Of a stretch of 64,000 bases of DNA, positions 4,306-44,500 are shown piece by piece. The stretch covers positions 51,001-115,000 of the forward strand of contig JAQGDQ010000462.1 of assembly GCA_030141605.1 (NCBI GenBank). Reading direction: 5' to 3'. The translations under genes and the position numbers were made by a program. The notes under the pieces were generated by a model. The model made no database searches, was not told the origin of the DNA, and saw nothing but the letters and a program-made list of their open reading frames with translations. Every line of letters begins with the position of its first letter. Within the stretch, counting starts at the first letter, position 1. Source of the stretch: Tubiluchus corallicola. Lineage: Eukaryota; Priapulida; Priapulimorpha; Priapulimorphida; Tubiluchidae.

Positions 4306-4488
4306 CTGAAAAAGGCAATGTCCAAAGTTCTAGTGCAGACTGGAATGTCCAGTGGTCTGGTGGATATCGTGGATATTTACGATATCGCCACCCTGACCGA
4401 TATGATCTTGTATCTTGACTTGACCAGCTGTAAGCACTCACGCATTTTCGACCGTACGGTTCCAGAAGGTTGTCAACGAAACACAGAT
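4306..4488 (-). CDS. PKD1-like exon 40: polycystin domain, last exon seen
   Basis: 183 bp, phase 1/1. It encodes [20 protein letters not shown] ... [20 protein letters not shown] then ELWTLPFSG. The two Cys and the 'W.f.sa.eL' motif are family-typical. The next motif expected (GGGY...WiD..TR) is absent from 1-4305, so the gene continues beyond the left end. Confidence 0.87.
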
Positions 4489-10400: not shown

Positions 10401-13400
10401 AAAAAATAATGCATTATCAGCTACAGTTGAAAAACTAGAAAAAACTATAAAGGACAAGGATCTGGAAATTGATAGTCTGGACCAATACAGTAGGCGTGAC
10501 TGCGTTGAGATTTCAGGTGTGCCGTTGACTAAGGATGAGAATGTTTCTGATATAGTTCTGTCCATTGCTCTGAACATGGATATCCCACTTGATAGGAACG
10601 ACATTAGTACAGCCCATAGGCTTCCACCGCCTAAGCGAGGAGGAAAAACCAAAGATAGTGGTGAAGTTCACTCGTAGGCTTGTCCGCGATCAGTTTTATG
10701 ACAGCCGGAAAAAAACTGGAAAAACAGGTCATCTTACTAGTGCCAACTACACCATAGACAATCAGATCTACATCAATGAGCTTCTCACGACGAAACGAAG
10801 GTCCCTTTTTCTCAAATGTCTAGAATTCAAGAGAAACCACAACTACAAGTACATTTGGACTAAATATGGTAGAATTTTTATTCGAGCCAGTGACAATAGT
10901 AATACTGTTGAAGTTCAGAGGGAGGACGACTTGAACACCCTAAAATAAAGACTTAGATGAGTAAATCCTGTTAGTTACATTTTATTAGATAGTTATGGTT
11001 TACCCATGCACTTTTTGTCTACACAATTGCAAAAATAATCAATTTAGTATTTTCTGTGACATCTGCAAATGTTGGACGCACTTAAAATGCACAAGCTTAA
11101 CAAGAGAGCAATTTGTGACTTTATCAGAAACTTCTGATGTCTATTACTGTTTAAAATGCATTAATGAAGTTATGCCGTTTCAAAACATAGAAGACGAGGA
11201 TTTGTCAATTAATTTCTCACATTTTGTTAATGTTGAAGATATCGAGCAAATAACTACTGCTTTGGAAGAATATCTTTCTCCAAATCCTAACAAAGCTGAT
11301 TCTTATGATCCTGATCATCATTCGGTTAAGTTCACATGTAATTATTATAAACTTGAATCTCTAAAGAATGACATCAATCTCAATCCAGATAAAATGATTT
11401 TTTGTTAGTCCATATGAATACGAATAGTTTAACCAAAAATTACTCGAGTATGCTCGATGTACTTTGTTATTTTTCACAGGCCCCTGATTTTATCGCCATC
11501 AGTGAAACTCGTATAAAAGCTCATCAACCTTTTTTATGTTCTCTCCCCGGCTACACTTATATTTCGGTAACTAATGCAGGTGGTGTAGCCTTATATATTA
11601 AAACTTCTATAGACTTTCAAATTAAAAGAAATTTGAAAATAGAATGTGATAAGGTGATAAATGATACCTTGCCCCCTGTGCATAGCCATATTCAGGTTGA
11701 ACATCTTTTTGTAGAATTGTCAACAAAATTTTCTAGTAAAAATATTATTTTTGGGGTGATCTATCGCCACCCAAACACTCCACTCAGACATTTTCATGAA
11801 GAGATGGACAATCTTCTGAATAAAATCAGCAAAACAGATAAATTGGCCTATGTGTGCGGAGATATTATTATCGACTTATTAGAGTATGACTCTAAGCAAT
11901 GTGTTCAGGACTATACCAATATGCTTTTTGCCAATTACTTTACACCATTGATTACTAAGCCTACACGTTTTTCTTCTACAGCTAAAACACTTATTGACCA
12001 TATTTACACTCCCCTTCTTCCCCCATTTATGCTGGTGTAGTCCTGAACCAAGTATCAGATCACCTACCTGTTTTTACCATTTGTAAAAATTCTTACTTAT
12101 TGAAAAAACAAGCAAAAATCAGGAAACGAAAGTTGAATAATATTAATTCTGCAAGTTTTTTAAATGACCTAAATCAAGCATTTATGGAAGCAGGAGTTGA
12201 AGACAATAGCGATATAAATCAAGCATTTAACGATTTTTTTCGTCTTTCACGAATGTTCTGGATGCTCATGCACCTATAATTACATTAAGCAGGAAACAAA
12301 CAGTTACATTTCAAAAACCCTGGCTTACATCTGGCATACTTACGTCTATCAAGATACGTAGTCGAATGTTCAAGACACATAAATTATCTAATTCTCTCTA
12401 CAAGCAGCAACTTTATAGGGCCTACTCTAATAAATTAAATCATATAAAAGATTTAGCCAAAAAGAAATATTATGAATACCAGTTTCAAATTAATCAAAAC
12501 AATGTTAAAAAAACCTGGACCATTATTAATAATATAATTGGCAGAAAAAACAAACAAATGCAAATTCCTAAGAAACTAGTGTACAATGGGAATTCCTCAT
12601 CTGATCCTGGAACTATTGCTAACATGTTCAATGAATTTTTCCAATCTGTGGGTAATAAAATGGCAGCTAATATCCCGCTTAATCCTAATGATTTTAGAAC
12701 ATACCTTTCGAATCCAAATTGCAACACCTTCTTTTTAAATCCAGTAGTAGGAATTGAAATAAAAACACTTATTAATAATCTCAGTGATTCAAAAGCAAAT
12801 GGACCTGAAGACATTCCAATAAGAATCTATAAATTGACAAAAGACGTTATTACACCGATACTAGTTACTTTAATTAATAAGTCTTTCACAGTAGGCATAT
12901 TTCCCGAAATTTTGAAAATTTCCAAAATCATTCCTATTTATAAAGCAAGCTCGCCAGATAATCCATCAAACTACCGACCAATTTCATTATTATCTCCTAT
13001 TTCACTACTTTTTGAAAACATTCTTTACAAAAGGTTAATTTTGTTTCTAAACAACTCTAACGTCATAACAAAATACCAGTTTGGTTTTCGGAAAAACCAT
13101 TCGACGGCACTTGCTACAGCCGAAATAATTGATAATCTCCTATTTAATCTTGATAATAATAGAATAACCTGTGGCATCTTTCTCGACTTATCTAAAGCTT
13201 TTGATTGTGTACAACATGACATTCTTTTGACCAAGATACAGCACTATGGCATTAGAGGCACCCCTTTTAATTTAATGAAATCGTATCTCAGTAACAGACA
13301 ACAATTTACAATGGTAGGCAATGCTAAATCCACTCTTCTTAATGTCACGACAGGCGTACCACAAGGTTCTACACTGGGCCCCTTATTCTTTTTACTCTAT

Positions 13401-16400
13401 ATCAACGACCTCCCACAAGCAACTAATTTCACTGCACGTCTTTTCGCCGATGATACAAACCTTTTTTTAACTGGTCGTGAATTGCACTCACTTCAAACTC
13501 AAGTTAATCTTGAATTAAAAAAGGTTGATACCTGGATGCAGACTAATAAGTTGTGGGTTAACTACACGAAGACCAAATATATGCTGATTGCAAAAAACAA
13601 ACAGATACGCATAACAATTTTACAGTAGAAATAAATGATAGGACAATCACACAAACTCACTACATAAAGTACTCAGGACTTCATATTGACAATAAACTCA
13701 CATGGAAGACGCACATACAAACCATTAATCAGAAAATTAGCAAAACATCTGGTATCTTTTTCAAACTCAATTTTCTGAGTACCTACATTCTGAAAATTCT
13801 CTATTATTCCCTTATCTATCCATATCTCTATTATTGTATATTATCCTGGGGAACTGCCAGTGTCTCTTCACTCAAACCTTTGATAGTCGCACAAAATAAA
13901 ATTATCAAATGCATCACACGAGTAAAAAAGTTTGACCATGTCACACCATCTTATGTGCAGTTAAATTTACTCAAACTTAAAGATATTTACCAATTAGAAC
14001 TTTTCAAATTCATGCATAAATACAGTTTTGGTACCTTGCCCGAACTATTTAAAAACTATTTGACCAGAATTGTAGAAATACATCACTATTCAACACGTGC
14101 TGCTGCTAGAGGAGATTTTTGTCAGGACAGATACTTCACTTCTTTTGGGCTAAGCACCTTAAAATATAACGGCACAGTGCTGAGGAATAAACTTCCAAGA
14201 GAATTCACTAGCAATTCCTTCTTTAGATCAGCTACTCGAAAATTTCGTTTACACTTACTTTCGCATTACTGTTCTTCATAAACTTACAGATATTTTTTCT
14301 ATTTTGATAATTTGCAGCATACACAAATATGTGAAAATAGTGCTTTATGATAGGATAAATCTGTCAAAAGTTTATTATCTAGGAAAATATCATATTCGTG
14401 TATTTATTCGGATACGACTGCATGAATTGCAATCACAAATTAGTCAGCAGTATCAATTTTCGGTATATTACTCAAACTTAGCTGATCTTATTTATTTTGC
14501 TTTTGTTTTGTTTATTAATCAGACACATTTGTTATTATTTTAATGCATGCATTTTGCAGTTAGTTAATGCATTTATTTTGCTTTTGTTTTGTTTATTAAT
14601 CAGACACATTTGTTATTATTTTAATGCATGCATTTTGCAGTTAGTTAATGCATTTATTTTGCTTTTGTTTTGTTTATTAATCAGACACATTTGTTATTAT
14701 TTTAATGCATGCATTTTGCAGTTAGGTTCAGTTCACTATTTTGAAAGTTTATTTAAATTTCTGTTTGGCTAGCTTACTTTTCACTTCATTTAATTTGTTT
14801 TTTATTATGTTCATTTAATATTATTGTTATTATTTTGCATGTTTTTCTCATTCTGAGTTATATATCTTATTTTGATAGCTTCAGTGTCATCTCACTAATT
14901 ACATACATCTATTGAAGGGTGGCTTGACTAGTTGACCTTCTTGGTCTTTTGCCATCCTATTTCCATTGTGATAATTAAACACATTTACTTGCTCAATTAT
15001 ATAATGAATATGGAAATAAAATGCACGTTTGAATTTGAATTTGAATTAAGTTTGATAATAATTAAAAAAATGAAGATATACCACTGCAAAAATCCAAAAT
15101 TCGTACCTTTTCATCCAAGTTTGCCATCGATTCTGGATCAATTTTTTCTAATGAGTCTTTTAGCCTGGAAAATATTGTGCAAAACTAAATCATAGTTTTT
15201 ACTGCTAGTAAAACAGATCAAGCACGCATACATAGGAATGAACTCAACTTGAAAATAGTTTTCAACAACAACAAACAATGGCGAAAACATTATTTTGACA
15301 ATCATAAGAAGAACAGCCTAATTTTAATTTTGCTGCAATGGTGGCATTGGTAATGGCGGCAGTTATCATTGTCGTGATGTGTGTCATGAACTGATTCACG
15401 AGTTTGCTTGATGAACTTTATAAACTTTAGGAACATTACAACTTCAGAGTAAGTTAGACTACAGTGAATCATTTTCTAAACTAAATGGTTTCTGATATTC
15501 ATTGCCCGAGGTTAACCAGCTTTAACTGATTTGTCCTTTTTGAAACTAGTTTGAATCTAGTTGTCACAACATAGTGTACAGGAAAGATGGTCAATAATAA
15601 AGTGTCTGTGCCACAAAATGAATTTGGTTTATGTAGCTACATGTATTAACAAAAGCCTCTTTTACAATGTGGGAAGAGGATGTAAGTGCCAGAACACAGA
15701 AAATTATAGACAGAAACCTAAATAGCTTTGCTCGGTACTGTTACGTTATGACGTCATGTTCACGTGACTCCGTAGCTTCATTCTCTTCTGTTCTTGCTGT
15801 TATGTGTTAACATTAATTTTATCTTGTCTCTCATTGAAACAAGGATTTAGAAGTTTATACGAAGTACACACATCAGACTACCTAGTTTGTTACCTGCATT
15901 CATACAAATCGGAAAAGTACACCTCAGTTGGAAGAGTAAAATTTTTGCATACACTTCCAAACTTAATAAATTGCTTACTCTTCAGGCTCCTTTGGACGAC
16001 CAACAGTAGGTAAAAGAACAGTCTCCTCGTCACCTTTTGACATCCGAAATATCTGAATGATCAATATATTTATGGGTAGAACTATTAAACTGCTTTCAAT
16101 ACCTAAAAACAAAATAAAATGATTCTGCAGATTCACGAATTAACTTTGCAGAATGAAATGATGAGAAAGGCATATTGTCTTTTTCTCTTTCTCCTCCCCC
16201 CTTCTCTCTCTCTCTCTCTCTCTCTCTCGCACATAATTTCCATATAATAGTCTGTTTTGTGCCACAACTCATCTGCAAACAATAGTAAATAGTTACTATC
16301 CTTGTTTTATAAACCTAAACATCATTTCGTCACACATTTATGCTCTATCAATTTTCTTAAAGGGGAAGAACAAACTATTTTAAAGGACTTCCCAAGGAAC

Positions 16401-19400
16401 TTTCCACATAAATTTACATTATTTTGCACTATAGCCTGCTCACCTGATAGAAGTTCTGACTATTCATGCCACTTGGTAAAACGACACTGCATTACCATCC
16501 CAGTGTGCATCAGTGGTTCATCAAAACACACATTATTGATGTTGATGTAATTTAAAAGCACGTTACAAATTCTCTGATTATTTTTTCTAATTTAGCGCAA
16601 TATCTAAACTTGATTCAAATGACTTGCTACAACTAACAGTTTTCATTGGAATTCAAATTTACAAGTTTTACATAGTGTTACTGGCAAGCTCTGTATGCAT
16701 TAAGACAGCATGTAAGTGATTCAAAATTTCAAGCTTTACGAAGAGTGATTTCTTGTGATTAAAGGAAAACCGGACGATTGTGTAAACATTAATTAAGAGT
16801 AAACAATGCTCTAAAAGATTGAAATCTACAATAGCTTTTTTTAAATCAAAGCTTAGATTAAATAATAATTAGCTCGGATAAACAAATTTTCTTAAACTTT
16901 CAAAGCTAAGCCTGGCTCAGTGAATCTGCTAAGATTGGCAATGGCGCCTTTTTGTCACATTCCATGGCCGACAACTATCAAGAACTGCAGTGCTAGTTTC
17001 AGATGGTATATGACATAGAGCCCATTTTCGTGATATCATGCGTTCAAGCAGCACTGTAACACTTACGCAAACATGCTTGATGCTCAAATAACATTGTTTT
17101 TTGGCATGAGCAGTAGATATGTTCCGTTGGCTTTAATTAACTTTCAACACAAGATATTCATTATAAGAAAAATTGCTAACTTTTATAGGCCAAACAATTT
17201 ACATATTGGACAGGAAATTAAAATGAGGTTGAGTATAATCAACTGTGCAGTTTTCGTTTAATTGTGAATACAGATCTCTGTTGTTTAAAAATGAAAACGC
17301 AACTCACCGATAATGAGCGACTGCCATGATATCCTCATGCTTCCTATGACAAGCTGCTCTTTCGGATCTATTGGAATACCATAAAACATGATGTTTGCTA
17401 ACATGCCCGTCAACAGCAGCGATAAAACACAAGTTAGTCTCTAGCAAGAAAGAAAAATTTCCAGACTTTATAATTTAGTTAACAAAGTTAGTTAACAAAA
17501 ACTGCAATTTAAAAAACATGTTGCAAACTTAACTGTGATATCTATTGCGGTTAACAAACTAATTTTCTTTATTAGTTAAAGAGAACCATCAATAGCAATC
17601 TCGTCGACATTAACTCGGGTAACTTCCATCTCTTTCAACTGTGTCCTCAAAGTCACAAATTCGAATCGATTTTAAACTGTGTTGTGGTAGACCACATGTC
17701 TACCCATACTTCTGCCTGTATGACTTGTGCAAATGACATTTTATACGATACCACAATTCACTTATAATTATTATTAATGTTATTGTTACTATATTGTTAC
17801 ATTTTGCTATTTAGACGAGAATATACGATCCGTAGCGATGACACGTTACTTGTAAAAAGTAATAAGCAATGTTATAAAAAGACAAATATTTTCATTGAAA
17901 ACCAATGGTCATTCAGAGGAACGGTCAATACAACAGGATCATTTCACTGACCTGGACTCTAGTGAAGTTACTTTGTGCTGGCCTACAGAATATGCTTGCC
18001 CATAAGTGACTATCTCTGAATCCTACAGCAGCTTTTGATGCAAATACATGTGTAAACCCCTAAACCAGAAAAATATATTAATAATTAAAAATAATTAAGG
18101 CTTTAGTTATCCATGGACAGTGTTACTTATTGTTTTATTGACCTGCCAACCATTTGATTTAAAAAAATAGCATGAAATGTAAACTGATTAAAAAATGTTT
18201 GCTTTTTTGGGTATCAAAATCTAATTCTAAAAACATTAGGGGAAGAAATAACTACAAATCAAGCTTTCTTGCAGTTATTGTAGTCGCTTTGCTTTATAAT
18301 GTAAATAACGAAGTTATACTTTTATAATATTCTTTTATAATGCAGAAAAAGTTCAATAACAAAACTGTATTATTGTAGTATTGTATTAATAAAACCCCTT
18401 CAAGGCTGTAAGATTTTGTTGTATTTTGCATCAGGTCACGAAAAACTGTACTTATTAAGCAATGATTACATTATATTTGATTATTTTTGTACGTTTCTGC
18501 TGCTCAAGCAAAAGGCTTTCATACAAAATTGTATATTAAGGACATTTATTTGCCTTAAACAAATTATAAAAAAATTGGCGAAAAAATTGAGAAACGCATT
18601 TCAGTAACTGCAACATTTGCACTGTAACAATGTACAGTATCACTTTTGTGAAATCGACCAATTCAAATAATTTAAACTATCCAGACACAACACACTGGTA
18701 AACTTTGACCTGTGTTCTATTTTGCTTCAAGGAGAAATTCTGGTTAAAAGATGAAACAACCTTAACCTGACTTTGCTTTTTCATTGAACTCTGTTGAGCA
18801 GTCATTTCTTGTGATGAATAAAATAGTGTGTACGATCACGCAAATGTACAAAAAACTAAATTAACTAACAAGTTGGAGTGTTTGAAGAAACGATCATAAG
18901 AAATGATGTAACCCCAAAGCTAATTAAGATGCAGATACATACAAAGTAGTTTAGAATAAATCTGCCATAACTTGGCTACATTAAGAATAAATCTGCCATA
19001 ACATAGTTACATTAAGATTAAAACTGCCATAACTTGGCTACATTAAGAATAAATCTGCCATAACATAGTTACACTACTTATGATAAAATGCATTGCAAAG
19101 TAGCAGTGGACTGGCCAATGTGATCAACACAGACAAAATTAGTGGTAAATAAATCTGAACGCTTACCACAAGCTTCTGCATTTTTGCTGGTCCCAGTGTA
19201 CAATAAATTGTTTGTGGACCTTGATGCACTGCCAACCAATTATTATACAGAAAACACCAAACTTGATTTGTTTGTAAATCTCTTACAACAATCTGATTAA
19301 GATACCTAAAAAGAGAAACTTTTACATATAGCGTGCAGTAGTAACGAAATGTAATAAATGTAGTAACTTGTGCAGCCTCAATAATTAGTTTAGGATAACA

Positions 19401-22400
19401 AATAACTCTGTAATATGTAACTATAGTTTGGGACAACAAATAACTCTGTAATATGTAACTATAGTTTAGGACAACAAATAACTCTGTAATATGTAACTAT
19501 AGTTTAGGATAACAAATAACTCTGTAATATGTAACTATAGTTTAGGACAACAAATAACTCTGTAATATGTAACTATAGTTTAGGACAACAAATAACTCTG
19601 TAATATGTAACTATAGTTTAGGATAACAAATAACTCTGTAATATGTAACTATAGTTTAGGATAACAAATAACTCTGTAATATGTAACTATAGTTTGGGAC
19701 AACAAATAACTCTGTAATATGTAACTATAGTTTAGGACAACAAATAACTCTGTAATATGTAACTATAGTTTAGGACAACAAATAACTCTGTAATATGTAA
19801 CTATAGTTTAGGATAACAAATAACTCTGTAATATGTAACTATAGTTTGGGACAACAAATAACTCTGTAATATGTAACTATAGTTTAGGATAACAAATAAC
19901 TCTGTAATATGTAACTATAGTTTAGGACAACAAATAACTCTGTAATATGTAACTATAGTTTAGGATAACAAATAACTCTGTAATATGTAACTATAGTTTG
20001 GGACAACAAATAACTCTGTAATATGTAACTATAGTTTGGGACAACAAATAACTCTGTAATATGTAACTATAGTTTGGGACAACAAATAACTCTGTAATAT
20101 GTAACTATAGTTTAGGACAACAAATAACTCTGTAATATGTAACTATAGTTTGGGACAACAAATAACTCTGTAATATGTAACTATAGTTTAGGACAACAAA
20201 TAACTCTGTAATATGTAACTATAGTTTGGGACAACAAATAACTCTGTAATATGTAACTATAGTTTGGGACAACAAATAACTCTGTAATATGTAACTAGAT
20301 GAGCCAATGAAACTGTTTGAAAATGAAAAGACATTAGAAATCTTGGACAGCACTATCTTGCAGCAAAATGCTCCGATAACTAAAATATAGTTAAATAAGT
20401 GAATTTTTTAGGTAATTTATAATTGGCCCGATTTTTAGTTACATAATCTGTGAATAACTAAAGCCGGTGAGAAATTGCTAATCAATTAAAATAACATGTG
20501 CATGTACTGTGCCACCAATTCTGCATAATCATGCATTAATAAGATGAAGTAAAACTATTTTTATTACCATTTTGGACTTTCTCCTGTGTTATCATGCCAC
20601 AATTCGATGCTTGAAAGTTCACCAAGTGAGTTCTCAGTTGTCATCACAAACCAATCTTCCGACCCAGCTTCTAATATTGGTCTGTTTTTATCACACAGTT
20701 TAGTAGGTAAACTGTATCCACTTAAACCTGAATGTGTGAACAAATGGGTTGCACAATGCAGAAGTATTGAATACCAATATGTAAAATTGTAACCAATTTA
20801 GAAAATTAGAAATCAAGATTCCTTGTGCAAGACACTTTTATACCATCAAGGTACTCCTACAATTAAAACTGCATTAATATACAATTCATGCTGTATGCAT
20901 AGTCTTCTTTATGTAGCCTTCTAGCAGCATAGTCATGGCTTTTGAGAAACTTCCATTTTGTAAAATGAACAAATGGTACAGAACTCACAATGTGCGTACA
21001 TAAAATAAAAAACGAGAGGAAGAGGCAGAGAATGCAAGCAGGAGGACAGTAAGGATAACGGGCAGGTAAAGGGATAATAAAGGTTTTATATCCTAGACTC
21101 ACACTGTACATTGGTAATCTCTTATAATCTCCTATAATCTCTCATATCACAACACATGCCTATCATTGATTAGCGTAAGGAATATCAGCAGGTATCTTGT
21201 TGGTCACACGACTGCTCATCTGTGCATATTTATTTTCACCTGGGCAAGCTGGCTGGTTTGTCGACATGAACGGGGTTCGCTATGTTAGTAACGATAAAAG
21301 TAGTTTTAACGATGCAGATCATTTGTGTAATTGCTAAATGCTTACCTTCTATAGCAATGGTAACATTAGATGTTGTCCCAGCACCTTTTCTCATTCCAGT
21401 GTAAACGATGATAAGATAAGCATATTTATCAAAAGGATCATTGTCTTCTAAAATTGTAACACCAACCTGTCAACAATTCCGAGGTAACACTTTCTGTAGT
21501 TTGTTATAATAAGTTTTCTGCATTTTGTTAAAATAAGTCAGTGTTATACACTTATGTGTAATAGTGATCACAAACATTGGAACGGCGAGAGAACCTACTG
21601 CAAAATTAAAAGTTTATATTGCCTCAAAGTGAAGTTTTGACCTAGGAGAACGTTTTAGCACAGACAACGTTGCAAGAAAGCCAGCAATATAAAGAGTTAA
21701 TTCCATAGAGAATTGCATAAACTTGTTTCACATTGCTGAAGCAATAGCTACTTTGAATCAAATGCAGTTGCAGTTCAGAGAACAGTTTAAGCTTAAAACA
21801 AACATCTAAACTTGTGAAAACACTTTTAAGTTTATACAACATCACACAAGAAAAAGGTACAACAAATTATATGATGGCTGGAACACCCGATTGATTGTTA
21901 TTAAAGTGAAGACCAAGCCTGCTGGCACAACGATTAAAATGGTTATCGGTTAAAAAAAGCAACACACCATTCACTGCCTTCAAATGTGTAATAAGTTTTT
22001 GCAAAAAAATAAGATAGCTAATTTTGCGATATTTTTGCATAAATATTAAGTAAGCTGCAGAAATTTGAATTAGTTTAAGAAGAGAACTCTTACGGAAAGC
22101 CACAACGTTTTCAAAACGTCACTCAGTCCACCAGTTACCAACAGTTAAACTCATGATTTTTAAGTAAATGGCAGCTACCACTGCACCTAAAAATTTCAAC
22201 ACAGCAGTGGAATTAATTAACTTGATGCTTTATAAACAGTTTTGCAAAATTCTTTGTTATATTTTTATAAGTTTAATTGATAAAATAATAATAAACACTA
22301 ATAAAATACTAATAATAAAAAACAATAAAATAAACACTAAATGCTAAATGAGTTAGGTAATTAATTACATTCAGTGTTGCAGAAGACAGGGCAATAGAAA

Positions 22401-25400
22401 TATACTTATTTCGTATATTGGATTTTACAAAGCCAAGTTATATGTTTGCAAAACCGAGTTATACAAATTTAACGTTATTTATAGGTCATAATGATATCAT
22501 AATGCATAAGTCCGAGTTTTTAAAGAAAGTTATAATTGTAGTTCAACGCTTTCAACTTGTTGATCACCAGAGTGTTTTTCATAGTTTTTCATCCTTGTTT
22601 AGCACTTAAAGTTGTAGCATAATCACTTACTAAATGTCTTAATTCTTAACTTCATTTCATCGTTTCCGCATATTTCAGTATATCACGATATCTGTATTAC
22701 CAGGTCTCATTTGAAAACATCCTATATTATATTCAAGTTGAACAAACTCACACACTAATGCATCAACAATGTTAAGGCTCAAATCCAGGCTTCAAACCTG
22801 GAAAAAGCGGAAATGAAATTACAAACCCTTAAAGCATCTCTCCGGTCATTCCTCCTGGCATACAGAAGCATTATCAGGTAAAGCAACCAGATTAATAACA
22901 CAAACAGGACAACTACTGGGTTATCAAAAAACTCCAAGAAGAGAATGATGTCTTCGAATGGATGAACATAATTCGGCTTTACGACATACTTCCCAGAAAA
23001 TGCGGTCATGTGATAACACTTGCAATGAATCTGTGTCATTGTTGCTCTTGGACCCACCTGAACAGATTACAAACAATCAACATTAAAACACAATCAAGCA
23101 AAAACAATTAAGACTTGATACTGCATTATGATGTTATAGAATTCAGGTCAATTGTTTCCAAAAAATGTACAGAGACTTTTAGTAACGTGTTTTATGTGCA
23201 GTCTTGCAGCAGCACCTGCTCCTCTCAAATACAATGGCAACTGTTACAGTAAAATTGTAATAATAGGTCCAGAACCTCACTTGCTTTCAATGCTTATCCT
23301 CTAAGAAGAAACTCACTACTGAAGGACGTGTCTTGGGCACTTCGCCATGCTAGATGCTCTCATACAGGTAAAAAGCCAGAATCAGTAGATATAGATAAAA
23401 TTTTATCAATAGATAAAAGTTACTATCGAACCCAAGCAATCTTGACGAAAGAGCGTAGACTAGATATTGCTTAGCTTTGTTACATTCAGCAATGTAAATG
23501 TGAAATGTATGCTGACAGAAAGTTAACATAGCAAAAATTAAACGACCACATGTGATAACTAATTTGAAGGTATGAAAGACTTTCTGCATTTCTGCTGGAA
23601 AAACAGCAGGTAAACGAATCGCTTCGTTAAGTCATGTTTCAGTAACAAGAACAATTAAAGGCATCACTGGCACATTGTGATGTATATAATGGTCAAAACA
23701 AGCAACTTTGTTTTTAATATGCCTGATATTGATTAACAAACAAAAAAATTCTGGTGAAGAATCCATTATTTTCGCAATACCAGGATTGATATTATTAGTA
23801 ACTTTGTTTGAAAAAGAAAAATTATTACTGTATGAAAAATACACGGTATGAAATTTTCTGAAACTGTATATTACTGTATGAAACTATATATTACTGTATG
23901 AAACTGTATATTACTGTATGAAACTATATATTACTGTATGAAACTATATATTATTGTATGAAACTGTATATTACTGTATGAAACTGTATATTACTGTATG
24001 AAACTATATATTACTGTATGAAACTGTATATTACTGTATGAAACTATATATTACTGTATGAAACTATATATTACTGTATGAAACTATATATTATTGTATG
24101 AAACTGTATATTACTGTATGAAACTGTATATTACTGTATGAAACTATATATTACTGTATGAAACTGTATATTACTGTATGAAACTGTATATTACTGTATT
24201 AAAGCATGTTTGGAGTTTTAGAGTTTAGCACTTGCAGACTAAGCTAAACTACATCTAAACATTCAACCACTTGCATGCACAAATAAAAACAAAAGTTCCA
24301 TTGTTATCGAGAACCACAGATATCGAATCATATTTCATAATCCAAACCTCACATCCAGCTTGGGACCACTCCTCTAGCATTTCATCCCAGTACAAACATT
24401 GGGAGGAGTAAAAGCTCAGTGAAAAGTTGTATCTGGTTGTTTGTGGAGGAGCTGAAACATTGAAATTGAATTTATTTTGAAATTATAAGCAACCGTTTTG
24501 AACTGTAATTCATTCGTAACTATGCTAATAATTATGCTCATTAAGGCATGAAAAAATAATACTAGGAAAAATCGACTTCGAAATACTTTATACCTGGTGG
24601 TGTATTATTAGCTGCAAGAAAACACGGAATTTTCTGCAAATTAGTGGACGGATCTCCCTCAAGCCACGTCATGCACGGACATGCATATTGCAGATAACTC
24701 ACTCGAATTACAACCTAAACATAAATTTATCATCGTAGGTGAAACAATTCATCATATAGTAGAGAGGTTTTCGTTTGTGGCCACTAAATTATAAAACTAA
24801 TTACCCTTTAAAACAATTTGCTTATTCATACACCAAGACAGATTGCCTATGGGATCTTGTAGAGAAAACTGATGGCATATCAAACTAAAACATGAACACC
24901 AAATTTAATCTGAGAAAACATGCCAAAATGAACGCAGGTAAAAAGGTCTCAGGTAAAAATGCCACAGCTAAAAAGTCACTCACAAAACTGACAGGACAGT
25001 CACATAAAAAATTACAGGAAAGAAGCCACAGTTAAAAACGTCACAGCTAAAAGGTCACATAAAAGGTTACAGGAAAAACAAGTAATGCTAACAATAACCC
25101 AAAGTATTATAAACAAAGCATATTTTTTTCAGATACATGTAATGCCATCATATATAAAATACTGTTGTCAATATGTACAATTCACATATCGCGAGTTAGC
25201 AACTGATTTAATTTTTTCAGTACTTAAATTGTTTATGGTACATAAATAAATTGTGAGTGACCTTAACATTTGATTGATTGTTTGATTGACCGTCTTTCGT
25301 TCTAAGACAAAATTTTGGTTTGTTTCTGCGAATTTGTTACCGACCTAAACGAGTTTACAATGTGGTGTAATTATTGCATTTCCAAGGAAAACAATTATTC

Positions 25401-28400
25401 ATTATCAATCCAAATTTATCACTCACGTTTTGAAGGCAGCATATTGCAAGGTACTTATTGAAAATTAGACTGATTATCTTCAGAAAATGCACCTGCAATA
25501 ACCAGTCTAAACAAATAGACATGATCAACAAACACACCTGCAATAACCATTCTGAACTAATCGACATGATCAACAAACGCACCTGCAATAACCAGGCTGA
25601 ACAAATCGACATGATCAACAAACGCACCTGCAATAACCAGTCTGAACAAATCGACATGATCAACAAACACACCTGCAATAACCATTCTGAACTAATCGAC
25701 ATGATCAACAAACGCACCTGCAATAACCAGGCTGAACAAATCGACATGATCAACAAACACACATGCAATAACCAGTCTGAACAAATCGACATGATCAACA
25801 AACACACATGCAATAACCAGTCTGAACTAATCGACATGATCAACAAACACACCTGCAATAACCAGTCTGAACAAATACACATGATCAACAAACACACCTG
25901 CAATAACCATTCTGAACTAATCGACATGATCAACAAACGCACCTGCAATAACCAGGCTGAACAAATCGACATGATCAACAAACGCACCTGCAATAACCAG
26001 TCTGAACAAATCGACATGATCAACAAACACACCTGCAATAACCATTCTGAACTAATCGACATGATCAACAAACGCACCTGCAATAACCAGGCTGAACAAA
26101 TCGACATGATCAACAAACACACATGCAATAACCAGTCTGAACAAATCGACATGATCAACAAACACACCTGCAATAACCATTCTGAACAAATCGACATGAT
26201 CAACAAACACACATGCAATAACCAGTCTGAACTAATCGACATGATCCACAAACACACATGCAATAACCAGTCTGAACAAATCGACATGATCAACAAACAC
26301 ACCTGCAATAACCAGTCTGAACAAATCGACATGATCAACAAATGCACCTGCAATAACCAGTCTGAACTAATACACATGATCAACAAACATACCTGCAATA
26401 ACCATTCTGAACAATCGACATGATCAACAAACGCACCTGCAATAACCAGTCTGAACAATCGACATGATCAACAAACGCACCTGCAATAACCAGGCTGAAC
26501 AAATCGACATGATCCACAAACACACCTGCAATAACCAGTCTGAACAAATTCACATGATCAACAAACACACATGCAATAACCAGTCTGAACAAATCGACAT
26601 GATCAACAAACACACATGCAATAACCAGTCTGAACAAATCGACATGATCAACAAACACACCTGCAATAACCAGTCTGAACAAATTCACATGATCAACAAA
26701 CGCACCTGCAATAACGAGGCTGAACAAATCGACATGATCAACAAACGCACCTGCAATAACCAGTCTGAACAACTCGACATAATCAACAAACGCACCTGCA
26801 ATAATCAGGCTGAACAAATAGACATGATCAACAAACGCACCTGCAATAACCAGTCTGAACTAATACACATGATCAACAAATGCACCTGCAATAACCAGTC
26901 TGAACAACTCGACATGATCAACAAACGCACCTGCAATAATCAGGCTGAACAAATAGACATGATCAACAAACGCACCTGCAATAATCAGGCTGAACAAATA
27001 GACATGATCAACAAACGCACCTGCAATAACCAGGCTGAACAAATCGACATGATCAACAAACGCACCTGCAATAACCAGTCTGAACTAATAGACATGATCA
27101 ACAAACGCACCTGCAATAACCAGTCTGAACTAATAGACATGATCAACAAACGCACCTGCAATAACCAGTCTGAACAAATAGACATGATCAACAAACGCAC
27201 CTGCAATAATCAGGCTGAACAAATAGACATGATCAACAAACGCACCTGCAATAATCAGGCTGAACAAATAGACATGATCAACAAACGCACCTGCAATAAC
27301 CAGTCTGAACAAATACACATGATCAACAAACGCACCTGCAATAACCAGTCTGAACTAATAGACATGATCAACAAACGCACCTGCAATAACGAGGCTGAAC
27401 AAATCGACATGATCACAAACGCACCTGCAATAACCAGTCTAAACAGTTTGACCTACCTTCTCTAATAGCCAGGCAGGTCCAAAGTATCGATTGTCGTGCC
27501 AAACACTTATGAAATTTAATGTTCCAACAAACACTGTTGATACGTTGAAATCATCAGTTCTGAAAGAGATTGATAGGAGTTCTCTAATCTTTAAAGTTCA
27601 ACTCTATTGAGGACAAAATTAGGTTTATAAATTAGGTTTATAATGTTGCTCTAGCCTTTATATGGTGTAGAAAGACGTTCTTATGACCATTCAAATTTAC
27701 TATTTTTGAAAATTGGATAACAACCATAAATGATTCAGTATCAAGAGTTATCAACAGGTGTGTATACAGTTGTACCTGCCTATTTTCAAATTATGTCAGA
27801 TATTACAATAATATTAAGAACTCCTTACTGTGCACGTCTAAAACTTCCAAAAGAGCTGCCCAAGGTAATTTTATCAGAGTCTTTATGCTTTCCATGCAGC
27901 TGTACTGACACACTTGCTGCTGTACCTGCATATTCCACGTCTGCAGTCAGTATTGAGATCTGATACATCACATTCTCTGCAACTAAACAATTATTTTGAA
28001 TTAATGCTTTAATGATAAGCCAGGGTAGAATGGTGCGTGTGTTCCTGGTTTGATACTATTTATAAAACAAAAATTTAAATCTGAATTCTAGTGAAACTAC
28101 AGTCAAGCCTCTTTATACCCACTTTGGAACTGCAAAAAATGTTGGCATTAAGCGAGTTTGGTGTTATATCACGGTGCATTAAAACATACATGTCATGCAA
28201 ATGCATGTTTGCGAATAAAATTGGCTATATTCGAGCTTGGCATTATAAAGGGGAGAGTGCGTTATAATGGGGTTTCATTTAGTTATTTGTTTTTTATTAA
28301 AAGTACAGAATATTAACACTAAATGTTTACTAACAAATCTAAATTTCACATTTCATTTTCCATGTTATGTAATATAAAATATCTGCATAATGTTCTGCAC

Positions 28401-31400
28401 TCAAAGAGGTTCCCAGTGTATCCTGGAATGTTTTAGTTTGCTCGCCAATACCTGAGGTAATGTTTTCTTCTGGTTCGGTAATGTTTGTAGGCTCGTCTAG
28501 CCAGGTGATATTGGCACATATTTTCTCATAGGCTATGGTTTCCATCCTGCAAAATTCTTTGATAGGTGATTTACAGGACAGCAGTGTCTGGTCACAATGT
28601 GACGTACAATCTTCAACAAGCGCTGAGTCGCAGTTGGGGTGACATTGGTAACACGAACCATTGCATCTGAAGAAATTCTTTTCACAGTCATTTGTGTAGT
28701 TTTTACTGCAATCATGGTAAAAACGTCTACAGATTTCACGGTCAGCTTCAATAGACAATGTTTCCTCACAAGCAGCTTCGGTGTTTCTAATACAATCAGC
28801 TGGAATTTCACAAGAGTTATTAAGCGCCACAAAGCAATTTTCATACATTTTTTGGCAGCGGTTTAAACAAGCATTTTTAGATAATGTACAGTCAGATCGG
28901 CACATTTCGTGGTAGTTGTTACATGTGTCCAGCACAGATCCATAACAAACATTGTATGCATTGTGACAGTTAGTTGATGCTTTCTTACAATATTTTACCC
29001 AGTCTGTATAACAAGGTTCTTTTTCTAGGCACTTATCAACACTGCACAATAAGATTTTATTGTCTGTGCAAATCTGCGAATTCAAACAATTCTTTGTAGC
29101 ATTTTCCGCACATTCTGTAAATTCACCCTTGCATTTCAAAGATGCCTTATAACACGAGGGGGTGTAGAATGAGTCAAATAACAAGCCAACATAATAATCA
29201 GCAGTAATATTATCATCATTATAAAAACTTAGGACATTGTCTGGAGTCTTGCTGGTGTATGCATCAGTTGGAATAACTGGTATGTTATACACGGTATTTG
29301 AGTCTTCCCTAAAATCTCCAATTGTTGGCTTAACATTCTTTTTGAACACCACCTGAAATGAAGCATATAAGCTGTATATTAATTTTCTCTATACATATTA
29401 TCAAGCTGCAAATCCCTTAGCACTTTACAAAAATAATTTTTACCAAATCCCTTCTTTAATGACAGAGAGAAATCAGTAAAAGGTAACTATATTGCACTTA
29501 TTTATCAACTCACAAAATGTAAAACAAGGCTTTAGCAACTCACAGAATGTAAAACAATGTTTTAGTAACTCAAACAATGCAAAACAATGCTTTAGCAACT
29601 TACAGAATGTTAACTGATGCTTTAACAACACACAGAATGTAAAACAATGTTTTAGCAACTCAAACAATGCAAAACAATGCTTTAGCAACTTACAGAATGT
29701 AAACTGATGCTTTAACAACACACAGAATGTAAAACAATGTTTTAGCAACTCAAACAATGCAAAACAATGCTTAAGTAATTCACAGATAGTAAAACCATGC
29801 TTAACTAACTCACAGAATGTAAAAGGTATTTAGATAAAAAAATTGAAGCATCAATCGGAATGTTTGTTGATTCAAATTTTGTGAGCTACTGAAGTTCGGC
29901 GGTTCAATACCATTATCACCATTCCTAATGACATCATTTACCTTAAGCAACACTTCTACTGGTAAATGTTGAAATATCAGTAAAGCATTACTATAAGCAT
30001 CAACTGTGAAAGAATGTACTGTGATGTGTTTGTTGGAGACATTGCCAGTCGTCTGCAAGATGTACGAATCAACGGTGACAACATTTATTCCTAGAAAAAA
30101 ATAAAACTGCTCAACTTACTAGCATCTACAGAATCAGTAACATGCATTACTTGAGGTGATGATAACCGTTAAGAAGGTCAACATTGTTGCTGTTTATAAA
30201 AATAACAAAATCTTTGTTATTATCATCATAGTGGCCATGATGGACGCTACAGAATCAGCTGTAAACAAACATGCATACACATAATACGAAAGGCTAAAAT
30301 ACTCATAACCAAAACGCAAAATTTTATGTCTCAGTCACATTTCAGAATTTTGTACACTCATATCTCGGTTTGCCGGACAAAATCGGGGCGACGTCTAAGC
30401 TTCCCAAATGTCCATGTTTCCGATACTAAAACAATTATTATAGTATTCCTTGCAATAAAGTAATGGTAATTTAGAAGCAATTGCCTTATTGTGTCAAAAA
30501 CGTCTAGTACAGGCTACTCCTATGCAAAAGTATATAAAACTGTCGACAATTGACTCAAATTACACCGCATAACTGACTCTCTACTCTTTTTGCACTTTTA
30601 AGTACAGTCGTTACACGCTTGGTTACACTGATGTATTGATGTAAACAAAGTGACGTCAGGTCAAATAGCAGTCAGCTCGCGAAACAAAGGACTGTGTCCG
30701 TAGTAGTATACTGGTCTTTTTAACAGACCAGACACTGTCCAAATTTTCCACTCTCCGTAAAAGCGATGTCTCGCAAACCGAGATATGAGTGTAAATTGAT
30801 TTACGTTTGATGTACCTGCAACTTTCAGAAAAAATTCCAGCGGTTTTTCAAACTGCCTTTCCACAAATGAAAGATTTTTATGTTCACTGATAGAGATGCT
30901 AGCTATAGGTGTGTCAACCAGAACTGCAGACTCGTTCCAGGCAAATGGATTGTCCTCCATGTAATACAACTGCCAGAAATGTTATTAAGTCAAAAATAAA
31001 GAATTATCATTGCATTAAATTGAGCCTATGAAGTGAAAGAATATCCAGAAGCATTTGAGTTTTAGCAGCTTGCATTGGCACTAAATTGTAAATTAATTAG
31101 CAATTTGTGTAATTAACAACAATGGAGTAACTCGGAGATTATCGTTAATGGCAAGAATAGATACAATTAAAAGATTATTTATTATTTTACAATTATAAAC
31201 ACCTACAGCAGTTAAAAACTTATAGTTACAACACTACAACTTTATTAAAACTTTGAATTTACATAATTAAAAATCATGTCAAAACGTTACGACAATGCTA
31301 CTGCTGTCATCATCAGTGGTAAATTTTTACAAACATACAACCAGTTTATATATATAAGCAGGGCCTAGCATGGCCTACGGTATGCTAAATAATTAATTGG

Positions 31401-34400
31401 GGCATAGTGTTGGATACTGTATCTTCTGCCTATCATTTCTTTTATTTTGTGATAGATTTTAATAAATTACTTAATTACCTCTACACCAAGAGAATGCTGT
31501 TCAGTTGATAGCACATCAGACGGGGGCATTTTAAAATATCCAATGTCTTTCATGCTTTTCTGGGCACCTATAAGAAGTAAAAAATACAGTTACTAATTGC
31601 AAAATGTGCTAAGATTCAAAAATAATACAGCAAAAAGCTGAAAATTGCTAACTGAGTCATACTGAATGTAGCTAATACTTGTAAAACTACCTCCAAGTTC
31701 AGTGACTCTCAGTCGTTCCAGTGAAACCGTCATTAAATCTGTTGTAAACGTAGTTGCCTCTTCATGTACTACCTTGTGTTTAATGATGCTACTGGAAATA
31801 TCATCAACTAATTTCAGTGATTTCAGTGACACATCTCTGGCCTGCAACAAATTAACATGTGCACCTGTAAAAGTCTCCCTTTTTATTGGAGATTGCAGAT
31901 CATTGTGAACAACAGAAAGAACAGCAAACACATCCAAAAATTACCATTACAGGCTTTTACAAATTTATGGTTTTTGTAATTCACCTGGCAGTTATCTCTT
32001 CATCACCTAAACTAAATGAGAACCACTCTTTCTATATCACTATGATAATGCAATGGAATCAGAGCTTAACTGAAGCTATCATTTACCACTGTTGTTGAAA
32101 ATTGAACGTCATTATCAATAGCCAAGGCACGGAATAAATGCACTTATGTTCAATATTGCGCGGACATCCTACATCCACCTACATCCAGCTGTTTTTACTG
32201 AAGCAAAATTACTTGCAGAATACAATGGAATGACGTCACAACAATTGCTTCGCCTCAGTAAAAATCTTCTAAAATGAAATCTCCAATCAACTAGCGCCTG
32301 CTCCTCCTGGTTCAGGCGACCCGAAAAGAGTCCCTCATCTTCATACAGCTCTGTTCCTCCTCTTTACAAGGAGCTATAAATCTCTGTCAAAGAACCCCAT
32401 CAGATGCAGCTAGATCATTTCTCCTACATGGTGTTTAATCAACACACTGAAACCTACTAAAGAGTAAAATCAACTCCTCAGTTCATGCACTACCTGGTAC
32501 TGAATTCCTAAACTTTAACCAGTGAAGATTCGCTCTAACATTTTCAAACTATCAACAAATTAAATAAACTATTATTTTGCCATCATCATCAGCACTAATA
32601 TAAGCTCTGATTTATGACACGTCTATATGAAACCTGGTCACCTTGAATGATTAGTGAAGTGGTATATCTAATTTACTGTGATTATTATGTGACCCTTCGA
32701 TTACTGTTACGTCACTGCATGAAACCTCGTCTAGTAGGTGAAGAGTAACTGTTAGTTACCTTTGTATCAATAAACTTTTATTTACTACATTGACTTTGAG
32801 TTTAATTCTCATATCAATTTGAACACAAGTGTAATGACTTCTTTTTACTGAACAGACTATCAAACCATTACCAGCAGCACTCTCGGCACATTTAAGTTCT
32901 CTAGAAATAAGACGTATAACTTTTCTAGTTATAGCCTCTTAATCTGCACTACACGAGGGTGCAAATCTTTGAAAAAACCGTCAAAAAGGGCCATTTTGGA
33001 GGTTTTTTCGCCGCCCCTCATTTCCACCCAGAGGACCAGATTCAAAAAATGAAACCCCAATGGCAAATCAGTGGGTCCGGAAAATTTATTTGACGTACAG
33101 ATCGCTGAAAATAGTGCTGTCATCAGAGCCGTAGCCTCGTCGGTTACATATATACCACCGGAATTAATATACATGATTATTATTATACTTTGCACATGAT
33201 CCCATATTAAAAATTAATGACATTCAATATCATTGTTTTGGCTTACTAAATTTAATTCGCGTTAACTACAACACATATAATTTACTAAAGCTTTCACAAA
33301 TGTCTAAAGCTATATTACGTACTTGCATGAAGATCTCCTGATTTACAATGTCACTGGACAGACCTGCATCACCCTTGACCACTCTTTTTTTTCGCTTATC
33401 ATTGTTATCAAACTGATCTTTAGAGGCACGAATAATGCTGCCAAAGATGCTTGATATTCCACTTAAAGCAGACCTAGAAAACAAATCTGTTTGCACAAAG
33501 TGAATGGTCCAGCGATTGAGGATGACCGTGGAAAGGTCAAAGGTTAATTGCACCAGACAACACGTCTGTGTACACTTGACAACTCACTTCAGGCCATGCT
33601 ATTGTAATAGTAACAGTTTTAACAGCTAGCTAGAACCTTAGTTCATTTTTTCTTGTTTAACCCTGTTACAAAATCAGTCTACGCACTGACTGATGCATAT
33701 TTACATAAAGTCCACATAAAACAACTAAATTACTGAACTGATGCTGCACACGGTTTTGCCATACCCACATATCAGGTGAATGGTTGTAGTTAAGATGCGT
33801 TGCTGTGCTATATTTAACCTTTAACCTACAGCAACTACACATGCACACAACAGTGAAAAGGCTCATTGAACAATGCAAATATTCTACTAATAGCAACTAG
33901 CAACGAACGGCAGACACCACTGGCTGTAAAGATACACACTCAGGCACTGGTACAGGTACTAGGACAAATTTCAAACAAACGTATAATTAGTGATCAAAAG
34001 ACTGCAAACTTTTCAAGTCTGAGAAAAAAAACAGAGAAGATAAAATGGAGAGTGAACTGCATGCCAAACACTTGTAGTGAACAACTAGATATAATGTCCA
34101 TTTCTCGTGCATCATGGATAGTAACAAACTTGTGCAATGGATTTCTACTAATGTTACTACTTATTCTATAATAAAATTAACTATTTTTTATACTTTTCTA
34201 ATTCGTAACTAATACTGTTTTTAGTAGTCTTGAGAGCAGATTGTACAAAACTTTGCTCTAGCACTCCACAACCAACTCTGCTATCATATCAGCAAAACAC
34301 GATTATTAACACTAATTTTTCTGTGAAATTAATAATTTGCACACAGACTTCTATAATACGTCAAACTAAAACAAATTTGTATTTTCTAGGATGTAATGAT

Positions 34401-41500: not shown

Positions 41501-44500
41501 ATTCTCATGCACCATTGTAACAGTTGCTTCTCATACAACATTGTAACAGTTAATTTTGTGATTCATTGTAACAGTTAATCTGCATATAACATTGTAACTC
41601 TTACCTTTTTCATTGCTAGAGTTTGCATCGCTTCTATAATAAAATTCATACATAAGCGGTTCATCTTCATCAATGTATGCTCCACTGCACGTTAACGTGA
41701 ATTTCGTCTTCAGCGTCTCTCCTGGGATGTATAAAGTGTAAGTTTTTAACAACAAGAACAATTTTTACTTTTTCACGTATTAGTTATGTAAAATTAGAAC
41801 GTACTTTAAGCAAACAGCTTATTTCAAATATTAGCAGATGGGGAAAACTGCTTGGCACATTTGTTCATGTTCAAAATAAAGAGATGAGCTTGTAATTCAA
41901 TTGTACTTACCTTCATTAGGAGTTAGAGCACAAGGTTCAGCTGACTTCACAGGCATTTCATTAACTACAATCAGGTAAGTAGAAAGTCCAGGAATGCTAA
42001 ACGCAGGCCCACCTGCCAAATTATTTCAAACCGTAATAATATGGTAATAAACTCGAATTGAAAAGAAGTTGAAAGTATATAATTTGTCTTGTCTTTTACA
42101 TATAATTATAATTGCTCAAATATTGACAAGTGTTTACCTTCTACTACGACGGTATAGTTGTTGCCTTCTTTCAACGTGTTTCTATTAATATTTGCCAAGT
42201 CAGTGTCTTTATGAACATTTATATCCGGTTTTCCAGTTGAATTCTCAAACTTCCACTTGTATCTAAGTGTAGACATGCTTTCCTTGTCGCAATTAGTACA
42301 CAAAGCTTGCAACACAATATCTATATGAGAATTCACTTTTGCTCTGCAGTTTTTTAGACATCTAGAAAATATTTCCAAACAAAAACACCTCAAGAAATGG
42401 TTTTCTCACTCAAATAAAAATGTAAAAGATGGTAATCAAAAGTTGAAGTATTTCCTGTTGTGGTAAAACCGAAAATAGACTTTTCCTGCTTTTGTTAATA
42501 ACTAGTTTACAACAGTCTGTCTTATAAACACTAGATATCTGTTTAAGGACTAAATACTTCTTGTTGTTCAACAAACTCCTGAAATGAGAGTCTACATTCC
42601 TAGTTTTAAACTTTGAACAAAATCTTGTCCATTGCACATGCGTACATCCACATTCGTACATACGCGTAAGTACGTACGTTTACATAAAAAGAGTGCATGC
42701 AGTATGCACGTATGCTCAAACGAAAAACATACATGTATGTCATTTGGTGCTTGTTTCTGTAAAAGAACAAATTAGGCCATTACATGTCTGCATATGTGTC
42801 CATTTTTGACTAAAACAAGACACATAATGATATAATACTTGTACCAATATATTAATATTGGGCTACTGTCAATGGTACCTTCAAATCACAGGTATGACCT
42901 CAGACTTCCAACACCAGAGCTTTGGAACAGCTTTGGAGAGATGCAGTTTGAAGCAGCAGAACCGGGTAAAGTATTATTACAAAAATCTTAGATGCTTGGC
43001 TTTCTTTTGTATTGGTCAGAATAACAATTACAAAGCTATAAAATGTTCACAAATTATTAAATAAAATATATCATTCTGTCAGTTAAGCAACTGTAATATC
43101 ATTGATTTGTTACCTTTCCCAGAAACAAACATCAAAAATATTGTGAATCAGTTGAAAGAAAGACACTATCAGACTTGATTAAAACTGGCATGTTATGATA
43201 AACATCCATGCTGCTCTTTGTACTGCACTAATATATCATATAAAAGCTATCAAACACATTATGACAACTTCTTGCATTTATAAGTTAAGAAGTACCAAGC
43301 AATATGTACAGCACTCATACCTTACTTCAATGATGGGAATAGAACCTTCGTCTACCTGTAATACCTGTTGCACATATTGTTGCATCTTATTGGCTTTTTC
43401 AATTTCAAGCCCAATAGTCACATTTTGTAACCATGGTAACGATTTTCCTGGTATTATAAACGAGGACTCTGGAACAAGTAGCAACTTAATAATCAGAGAT
43501 CTCTTAAATAATGTAAATTCTAGGAAATGTAATTTTACCAATTTACTTTAAAGGTCAAACACAGCGTGTTTTGTGAAGTTTCACTTTTACACGAAAACAG
43601 AAAGAAAAAGCTCTGACTAAGATTTTCTGATGCATTGGCTTTTCTGGTTACATAAGAGAAAGTCCGGCATGAAAGTGTCATTTCCGAAGAAGTCTAGAGC
43701 TTGATTTTCATTATTTTCCTTGTTAGATGACTCTAGCAAAATATCAGCCATTAGTTACGGTAGTGTTTGCCTTTCATTATCTCGTGTCACACAGTTTACA
43801 GATTCAGTGTCACAGAAACGGCGTGGGATCCAAGGAAGACATACTACTACGTTTGTTTTGTCTGCGTTTTCCCAAAGTTTCCTGAGCGGAACCAAACAGA
43901 AATATTTTGTGGATAACGGCGTGATTTCGTTAGGACAGAATGCTTGACATTTAATCAAATTAGTGTCAAATTTTATGTTATGATTAGCTCTTTAATTAAA
44001 AAAAAACTTGTTTTTACATTAAATTTGACAAAAGCTTAAACAAAAGCTACACAGAAACATACTTGAAATATTCTTTAACATACCAGAGAAAATCAAACGA
44101 ACTGTATTATTGCTGTAACACCCAGTCTTATCATCATTAGGCCTGATTCCTGTACCATTATAACAATACCAGGTGTACCTGAAACAGTTATGATCATCAT
44201 GTTACACAGAATTTGCAAAAGTCCTACACAAACTTTAGACAGGTTTTGCTTCTTATAATTTATAGGAAGTTACATCATCAGCATTGTATTTTCACAGTAT
44301 TTAAGCAAACTGTCTGCAGCGCAGCTAGCTTAACATTGATGGGTGTGGTGGAACAAAATTCATTTGAAAGATAATCCTGCAAAATCAAACAATTGCTGGT
44401 AATTGTAATGCCAGTTACTTTCATGTGTGCAAGCATGATATACTGCCCGAATCTCCATCAGCAATCTGGCAGATGCTGCCACTATGAATGGAGAATTAAA

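Follow-up and report, generated by a model that had tools for sequence, protein, structure and literature searches.

A second PLAT domain before the GPS in an expanded polycystin-1 subfamily of the priapulid Tubiluchus corallicola

The window analysed here, a stretch of 64,000 nucleotides from Tubiluchus corallicola (contig JAQGDQ010000462.1, positions 51,001 to 115,000), carries on its minus strand a gene for a polycystin-1-like protein with two PLAT domains, one on either side of the GPS. Fourteen exons were joined between 33473 and 19167 (Table 1); each of the 13 introns has GT-AG borders, and the exons connect in matching phase with no stop. The protein runs from a cysteine-rich exon through the first PLAT domain (PLAT1), the GPS and the first transmembrane segment (TM1) to the other PLAT domain (PLAT2). 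A first-pass annotation, made from the sequence alone, had proposed this additional PLAT before the GPS and a domain search of the joined protein as a check. In that search both PLAT domains (59.9 bits for PLAT1 and 71.1 bits for PLAT2, Pfam cut-off 23) and the GPS between them (33.6 bits, cut-off 22.5) scored above threshold, and residues 8-111 of PLAT1 aligned to positions 1-110 of the 117-position PLAT model, a full-length match. The span of 22827-29352 originally given for the feature covers everything from the start of the cysteine-rich exon to where the TM1 exon ends. The intron phases read at first, 1-2-0-1 for PLAT1 and 0-1-2-0 for PLAT2, were recovered in the joined exons. The PLAT1 exons sum to 378 nucleotides with phase 1 at both ends, i.e., they form a symmetric cassette. 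We regard the architecture PLAT1-GPS-TM1-PLAT2 as virtually certain.

The remainder of the gene is that of a polycystin-1 (PKD1/REJ) family member. PLAT2 directly follows TM1, as in PKD1 and the polycystin-1 family, and its best match in the PDB is polycystin-1 (2.6e-18). Pfam also identified a REJ domain (99 bits on four joined pieces) and a Polycystin domain (50.7 bits on two joined pieces), the exons of the latter lying at 5354-4304 according to protein matches. A further match on the same strand lies just beyond the window (C982:49907-50161); the gene appears to continue past the window edge, and its PKD channel exons would fall outside. Two PLAT domains occur in the window gene and in the intronless copies L001 and L002 described below, against one in the usual PKD1-family architecture, although this count is not strictly defining. 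The earlier phrase 'new receptor design' was too strong, since the gene is a member of a known family with an added cassette.

Table 1. Exons and domain regions of the two-PLAT gene, in window coordinates.
Feature	Position	Strand	Basis
Exon upstream of GAIN, perhaps GAIN subdomain A helices (label inferred)	33323..33473	-	GT-AG, phase chain
GAIN region exon	31691..31841	-	splice and phase chain; corresponds to L001 open reading frame 889-965
GAIN region exon	31479..31567	-	splice and phase chain
GAIN region exon	30816..30969	-	splice and phase chain; splice sites identical in both C2275 copies
GAIN region exon	29942..30090	-	splice and phase chain; splice sites identical in both C2275 copies
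GAIN strand YYVGLLF, then cysteine-rich segment (~230 residues)	28452..29352	-	splice and phase chain; 37 loci
PLAT1 exon 1	27829..27982	-	splice chain, Pfam, relatives
PLAT1 exon 2 (VWHDN...AWLLEK)	27457..27559	-	splice chain, Pfam, relatives
PLAT1 exon 3 (CPCMTWLEG)	24594..24714	-	splice chain, Pfam, relatives
Last GAIN strand before GPS cysteine and first half of GPS (...GCE)	24348..24451	-	Pfam GPS; adhesion-GPCR structure match
Second half of GPS with cleavage triad HMT, and TM1	22827..23057	-	splice chain, Pfam, hydropathy, alignment
PLAT2 exon 1 (usual cytosolic PLAT)	21346..21466	-	splice chain, Pfam
PLAT2 exon 2	20568..20727	-	splice chain, Pfam
PLAT2 exon 3	19167..19305	-	splice chain, Pfam; PDB polycystin-1
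REJ-domain exons	41603..44930	-	extent by protein matches, splice sites not fixed
Exons for the later transmembrane segments and the Polycystin domain	4304..18056	-	extent by protein matches, splice sites not fixed

The order of domains is most directly seen in copies of the gene that have no introns. The genome (343.5 Mb, 2,344 contigs) was searched with a 239-residue piece covering PLAT1, GPS and TM1 (tblastn, E up to 1), which gave 150 matches with 150 of 206 candidates scored. The top five matches are unbroken stretches of 47-48% identity within open frames of 2,437-2,748 codons: L001 (contig C1882), L002 (C1923), L003 (C2172), C198 and C1930. The last two have the same score and are perhaps a single locus, which would make four loci rather than five. 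In all five, the cysteine-rich segment, PLAT1, GPS/TM1, PLAT2 and the Polycystin domain stand in a single open frame. Translation of L001 and L002 runs uninterrupted through 2,712 and 2,715 residues, and the frame of L003 is open for 2,721. Pfam reported REJ (153.5 bits in L001), two PLATs, Polycystin_dom and PKD_channel in both L001 and L002; an NCBIfam scan of L001 gave no match. Because five intronless copies hold PLAT1 in frame, a spliced message that included PLAT1 probably existed. About 375 bases 5' of the start codon are common to the five copies, the outermost ~165 of which match a dispersed repeat present in many copies (43 matches; 40 of 1,883 candidates scored). Farther out the flanks of L001, L002 and L003 differ, so that these are three separate insertions. 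The contig of L001 also holds a partial PLAT1-GPS-TM1 match in one piece, with an internal stop and 44% identity (C1882:394394-395002), perhaps a decayed intronless copy.

A simple hydropathy scan of L001 gave 11 hydrophobic segments, none of them before PLAT1. PLAT1 starts at about residue 1390, the GPS triad lies at about 1560 and the first segment, TM1, at 1594-1612. Of the proposed extracellular location of PLAT1, the part that could be read directly is that the domain precedes the first hydrophobic segment; the side itself we infer. The cysteines of PLAT1 exon 3, a C-x-C motif and a third cysteine conserved in 13 of 13 rows, are as expected for a domain on the outside.

The arrangement is not confined to the window. 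The cysteine-rich exon has 41 matches in the genome, which we grouped by eye into 37 loci; this is not a gene count, as uncollapsed haplotypes or fragments may be included. At least one PLAT1 exon match accompanies it on the same contig and strand at 35 of these loci, the exceptions being C2061 and C2114. PLAT1 matches without a cysteine-rich match occur at C1835, C2164 and the broken stretch at C1882:394394. Eleven intron-bearing loci (L008-L018), chosen for their PLAT1-GPS-TM1 search matches, were fetched for comparison. The exon order recurs in all 11, and tblastn found PLAT1 exons 2 and 3 in every one and exon 1 in 10. Since the PLAT1 exon profiles were built largely from these loci, tblastn is the independent evidence there. 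A splice-site script recovered most exons at the expected borders or at most nine bases from them; for L008 it returned a longer exon 2, exon 2 of L016 was missed by the script and found at the expected borders in a separate comparison, and exon 3 of L016 showed a larger score offset. In a comparison of eight exons, both copies on C2275 keep every splice site. Chance was ruled out by the exon order in 11 of 11 relatives together with the single frame of the five intronless copies, and an assembly or annotation artefact by the recurrence at many loci. No confirmed relatives were found in viral contigs (128 pattern stretches) or in contigs of prokaryotic genomes (39), which is uninformative on other animals. 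Within L018 (C1210), a coding piece of the GPS exon matches repeatedly at 5867-6488 in steps of ~87 bases, like a tandem array formed from part of an exon.

To locate the site of the cassette, we compared single-PLAT relatives from the same genome, using 10-kb stretches from four less closely related polycystin loci (L004-L007), selected for weak TM1 matches; other loci with weak TM1 matches, e.g., C1831:920760, lie outside this comparison. The PLAT1 exon profiles gave no match at E up to 1 in any of the four 10-kb stretches, and two of the three profiles did detect the diverged PLAT2 of L009. By inspection, L004, L005 and L006 pass from the strand equivalent to YYVGLLF (TGRIIVGIVQC in L005) across one intron to the strand that enters the GPS cysteine (FTYHYTYTFTTVSC). 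The flanks of this intron fit in phase 2 in L004-L006, and the acceptor side of L007 is in phase 1. Cysteine-rich segment and PLAT1 together measure ~375 residues in the window protein, against roughly 30-45 at the same place in the single-PLAT relatives. The short linker in L004-L006 argues that the cassette was inserted in the GAIN region, and the comparison supports a position in the loop that joins the final two GAIN strands ahead of the GPS. The first-pass annotation had likewise put it after the YYVGLLF strand and before the one that leads into CLYWDE. The GPS triad H-(M/L)-(T/S) is kept in seven of seven aligned rows, and the GPS part of the family profile matches structures of adhesion G-protein-coupled receptors (GPCRs; ADGRG6, F1 and L3 chains). 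Autoproteolysis at HM^T is predicted from sequence.

With respect to the origin of PLAT1, a recent tandem duplication of PLAT2, against which the intron phases had already been brought forward, was rejected on the intron positions and phases and on a tree of 19 PLAT rows (L014, L016 and L017 omitted as incomplete or near-copies). In 200 of 200 bootstrap trees, 12 PLAT1 rows and five PLAT2 rows lie on opposite sides of one branch, the support of which (88/97) is below the level that the tool marks with a star. The window PLAT1 alone matches a coral allene oxide synthase-lipoxygenase best (9.1e-10), ahead of polycystin-1 (7.8e-7), whereas the PLAT part of the seven-row family profile places polycystin-1 (1.2e-13) ahead of 11R-lipoxygenase (3.8e-11). 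A derivation from lipoxygenase is undecided on these comparisons; the Pfam matches of L001 and L002 include no lipoxygenase domain. A single acquisition of PLAT1 before the expansion of the family fits the data best. The cysteine-rich segment of ~230 residues matches no Pfam family. In its alignment of 19 rows, 29 columns are cysteine in at least 90% of the rows, many spaced seven residues apart.

Comparison with known systems places the family close to the human proteins PKD1, PKD1L1-3 and PKDREJ, with which it shares REJ, GPS, TM1, a PLAT after TM1, the Polycystin domain and the PKD channel, and to which it adds the second PLAT and the cysteine-rich segment before the GPS. The sea urchin SpREJ proteins have the same REJ-GPS-TM-PLAT order and form a lineage-specific set of 10 genes, most of them with the PLAT immediately after TM1 (PMC1934368, Fig. 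1 legend); a PLAT before the GPS is not described in the available part of that source, in contrast to the 37 loci and intronless copies found here. A coral polycystin-1-like protein shares REJ, PLAT and GPS, with one PLAT described in the accessible text (PMC4890752). The corresponding Nematostella protein shares REJ, PLAT and 11 transmembrane segments and has, in the portion available, a single, intracellular PLAT (PMC8846589). Excerpts on zebrafish and other fish polycystins give one PLAT, which the introduction lists among the N-terminal domains and the table places after the GPS, and excerpts on planarian polycystins give one PLAT, named intracellular. Adhesion GPCRs share the cleavable H-L-T type GPS; their seven-transmembrane core is not what L001 shows, which has 11 hydrophobic segments and PKD_channel instead. 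PLAT is unmentioned in the available 300,000 of 412,533 characters of an adhesion-GPCR review (PMC13197933), in the main text of a paper on Platynereis polycystin (PMC6294549) and in a paper on choanoflagellate GPCRs (PMC12716839). In the literature searched, among the papers listed and as far as its text was available, no PLAT before a GPS was found; subscription papers, InterPro and animal proteomes lay outside its scope.

Taken as a whole, the observations are best explained by an expanded polycystin-1 subfamily in which a disulfide-rich and PLAT cassette acts at a cleavable GAIN domain, a reading to which we assign a probability of roughly 0.6. Polycystin-1 itself is described, in the text available, as having a self-cleaving GAIN domain with its stalk as a tethered agonist (PMC11458180). 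As a tentative mechanism, which we hold to be possible rather than probable, PLAT1 and the cysteine-rich segment could serve as a ligand or force handle on this domain. The protein would be cleaved at HM^T, the outer fragment staying bound through the GAIN fold, from which PLAT1 and the cysteine-rich segment would protrude. The binding of a ligand from outside (protein, glycan, lipoprotein or a lipid surface), or force applied through one already bound, would weaken the hold of the outer fragment or detach it. This would free a tethered peptide beginning at the Thr of HMT, and the freed peptide would alter the gating of the 11-transmembrane polycystin channel complex, while PLAT2 would retain its usual role at the inner leaflet.

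Several results weigh against this explanation. The Pfam GPS model was not reported for L001 or L002 at E up to 1, despite the GPS residues, including HMT, aligning in L001. Although the PLAT1 profiles were negative at L004-L007, they also missed the first PLAT2 exon of L004, L005 and L007, which tblastn recognised, so that a strongly diverged PLAT could escape them and that negative is not absolute. Single-sequence AlphaFold prediction of the cysteine-rich exon was unusable (predicted local distance difference test score 37.4). For PLAT1, comparison of the window gene with C1491 over two exons gives a ratio of nonsynonymous to synonymous change (dN/dS) of 0.61, based on 6 changes; pairs of intronless copies give 0.66, 1.11 and 0.40, each from 7-8 changes, which are too few to judge. 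Finally, the cassette is frame-neutral (phase 1-1), and isoforms without PLAT1 would stay in frame.

PLAT1 might instead be a structural spacer or folding module which, with the cysteine-rich segment, stabilises or blocks the GAIN fold (e.g., leaves the receptor uncleaved or protected from outside proteases) and binds nothing. The nearly constant company of the two parts, at 35 of 37 loci, is what such a module would show, as are the invariant PLAT1 residues, which include W-H-x-N, WLLEK and C-x-C..WLEG; the PLAT1 matches at C1835, C2164 and C1882:394394 that lack a cysteine-rich match are to be read beside it. However, the positions between the invariant residues vary among the relatives, which would suit recognition better than a pure scaffold, and PLAT domains elsewhere are binding modules. 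We consider the spacer somewhat unlikely.

Alternatively, the subfamily could serve gamete or egg-coat recognition, with PLAT1 and a fast-evolving N terminus as the recognition parts. Such a role has been suggested for mammalian PKDREJ and for the REJ proteins of sea urchins. Intronless copies can presumably be inherited only if the gene is transcribed in the germ line; human PKDREJ also lacks introns and is expressed in the testis according to the available part of PMC1934368. Retrocopies also arise, however, from genes that are not gamete-specific. In the first ~600 residues of L001-L003 dN/dS is 0.96, 1.17 and 0.61, as a rapidly changing N terminus would give, compared with 0.09-0.29 in the GPS-TM1 and PLAT2 parts. 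PLAT1, on the other hand, does not evolve fast when the window gene is compared with the two C2275 copies (dN/dS 0.34 and 0.18, and 0.45 between the copies, with 15-25 changes each). The idea that PLAT1 evolves faster than the adjoining parts, hinted at by tblastn identities, was dropped since the domain is well kept in the C2275 copies within exact exon borders. A gamete function does not seem very probable to us. That the PLAT1 exons are usually absent from the mature protein, being skipped or part of a nested gene, would agree with the symmetry of the cassette, which keeps the frame if skipped, and with the 2 kb minisatellite in a PLAT1 intron, but is highly improbable given the five intronless copies with PLAT1 in frame.

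Other features of the window were recorded alongside the gene. Minisatellites lie in its introns at 25485-27445 (45-bp unit, 43.6 copies), 19386-20297 (38-bp, 24 copies) and 23859-24203 (20-bp, 17.2 copies); judging from translations, both C2275 copies seem to have the 45-bp array after this same PLAT1 exon. Upstream are very similar EGF-like exons with alike neighbouring sequence at 62206-62048 (Pfam EGF, 32.6 bits), 58385-58191, 49935-49771 and 47793-47629, the last three identified by eye. The four are possibly tandem-duplicated ectodomain exons of the window gene. Retrotransposon pieces occupy 60215-59643, 52903-50363 and 7713-6175. Their frames match, in that order, RVT_1, then integrase, SCAN and weakly gag, then an integrase zinc-binding domain just below cut-off; this last piece, at 7713-6175, sits between exons of the gene. 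Elsewhere in the genome, C2184 carries eight PLAT matches on one strand at about 25996-76966 (best 90 bits), perhaps a multi-PLAT (LOXHD1-like) gene or lipoxygenases. C1787, C2138 and C2264 gave equal scores; at each of them a frame of 670 codons holds a GPS, and another of 1,019 codons, ~10 kb off, holds a Polycystin domain. They are few-intron polycystin genes, and perhaps uncollapsed haplotypes. The assembly gave no COX1 match. Its let-7 and mir-1 matches exceed their gathering scores, whereas a mir-10 match next to let-7 and a bantam match (55.9 bits against 61) fall short of theirs; these microRNAs indicate a bilaterian and, as bantam is a protostome marker, probably a protostome.

By what route polycystin-1 passes a signal from outside to the tethered agonist held in its GAIN domain is an open question, for which the family offers natural test material: PLAT1 may be bound, pulled or, as a frame-neutral cassette, deleted while cleavage and gating are read out. 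A more far-reaching interpretation, which we judge unlikely, is a separate receptor-channel class with dozens of members in a single genome. Its outside PLAT would be part of the autoproteolytic GAIN fold, so that binding of lipid or protein would act straight on the joint held by cleavage and switch the channel, and the diversified copies would form a recognition repertoire. If PLAT1 acts as we propose, the PLAT fold, cytosolic in this family so far, would be employed on the outer side of the membrane. In this genome, polycystin-1-type genes have expanded to dozens of loci, intronless full-length frames included.

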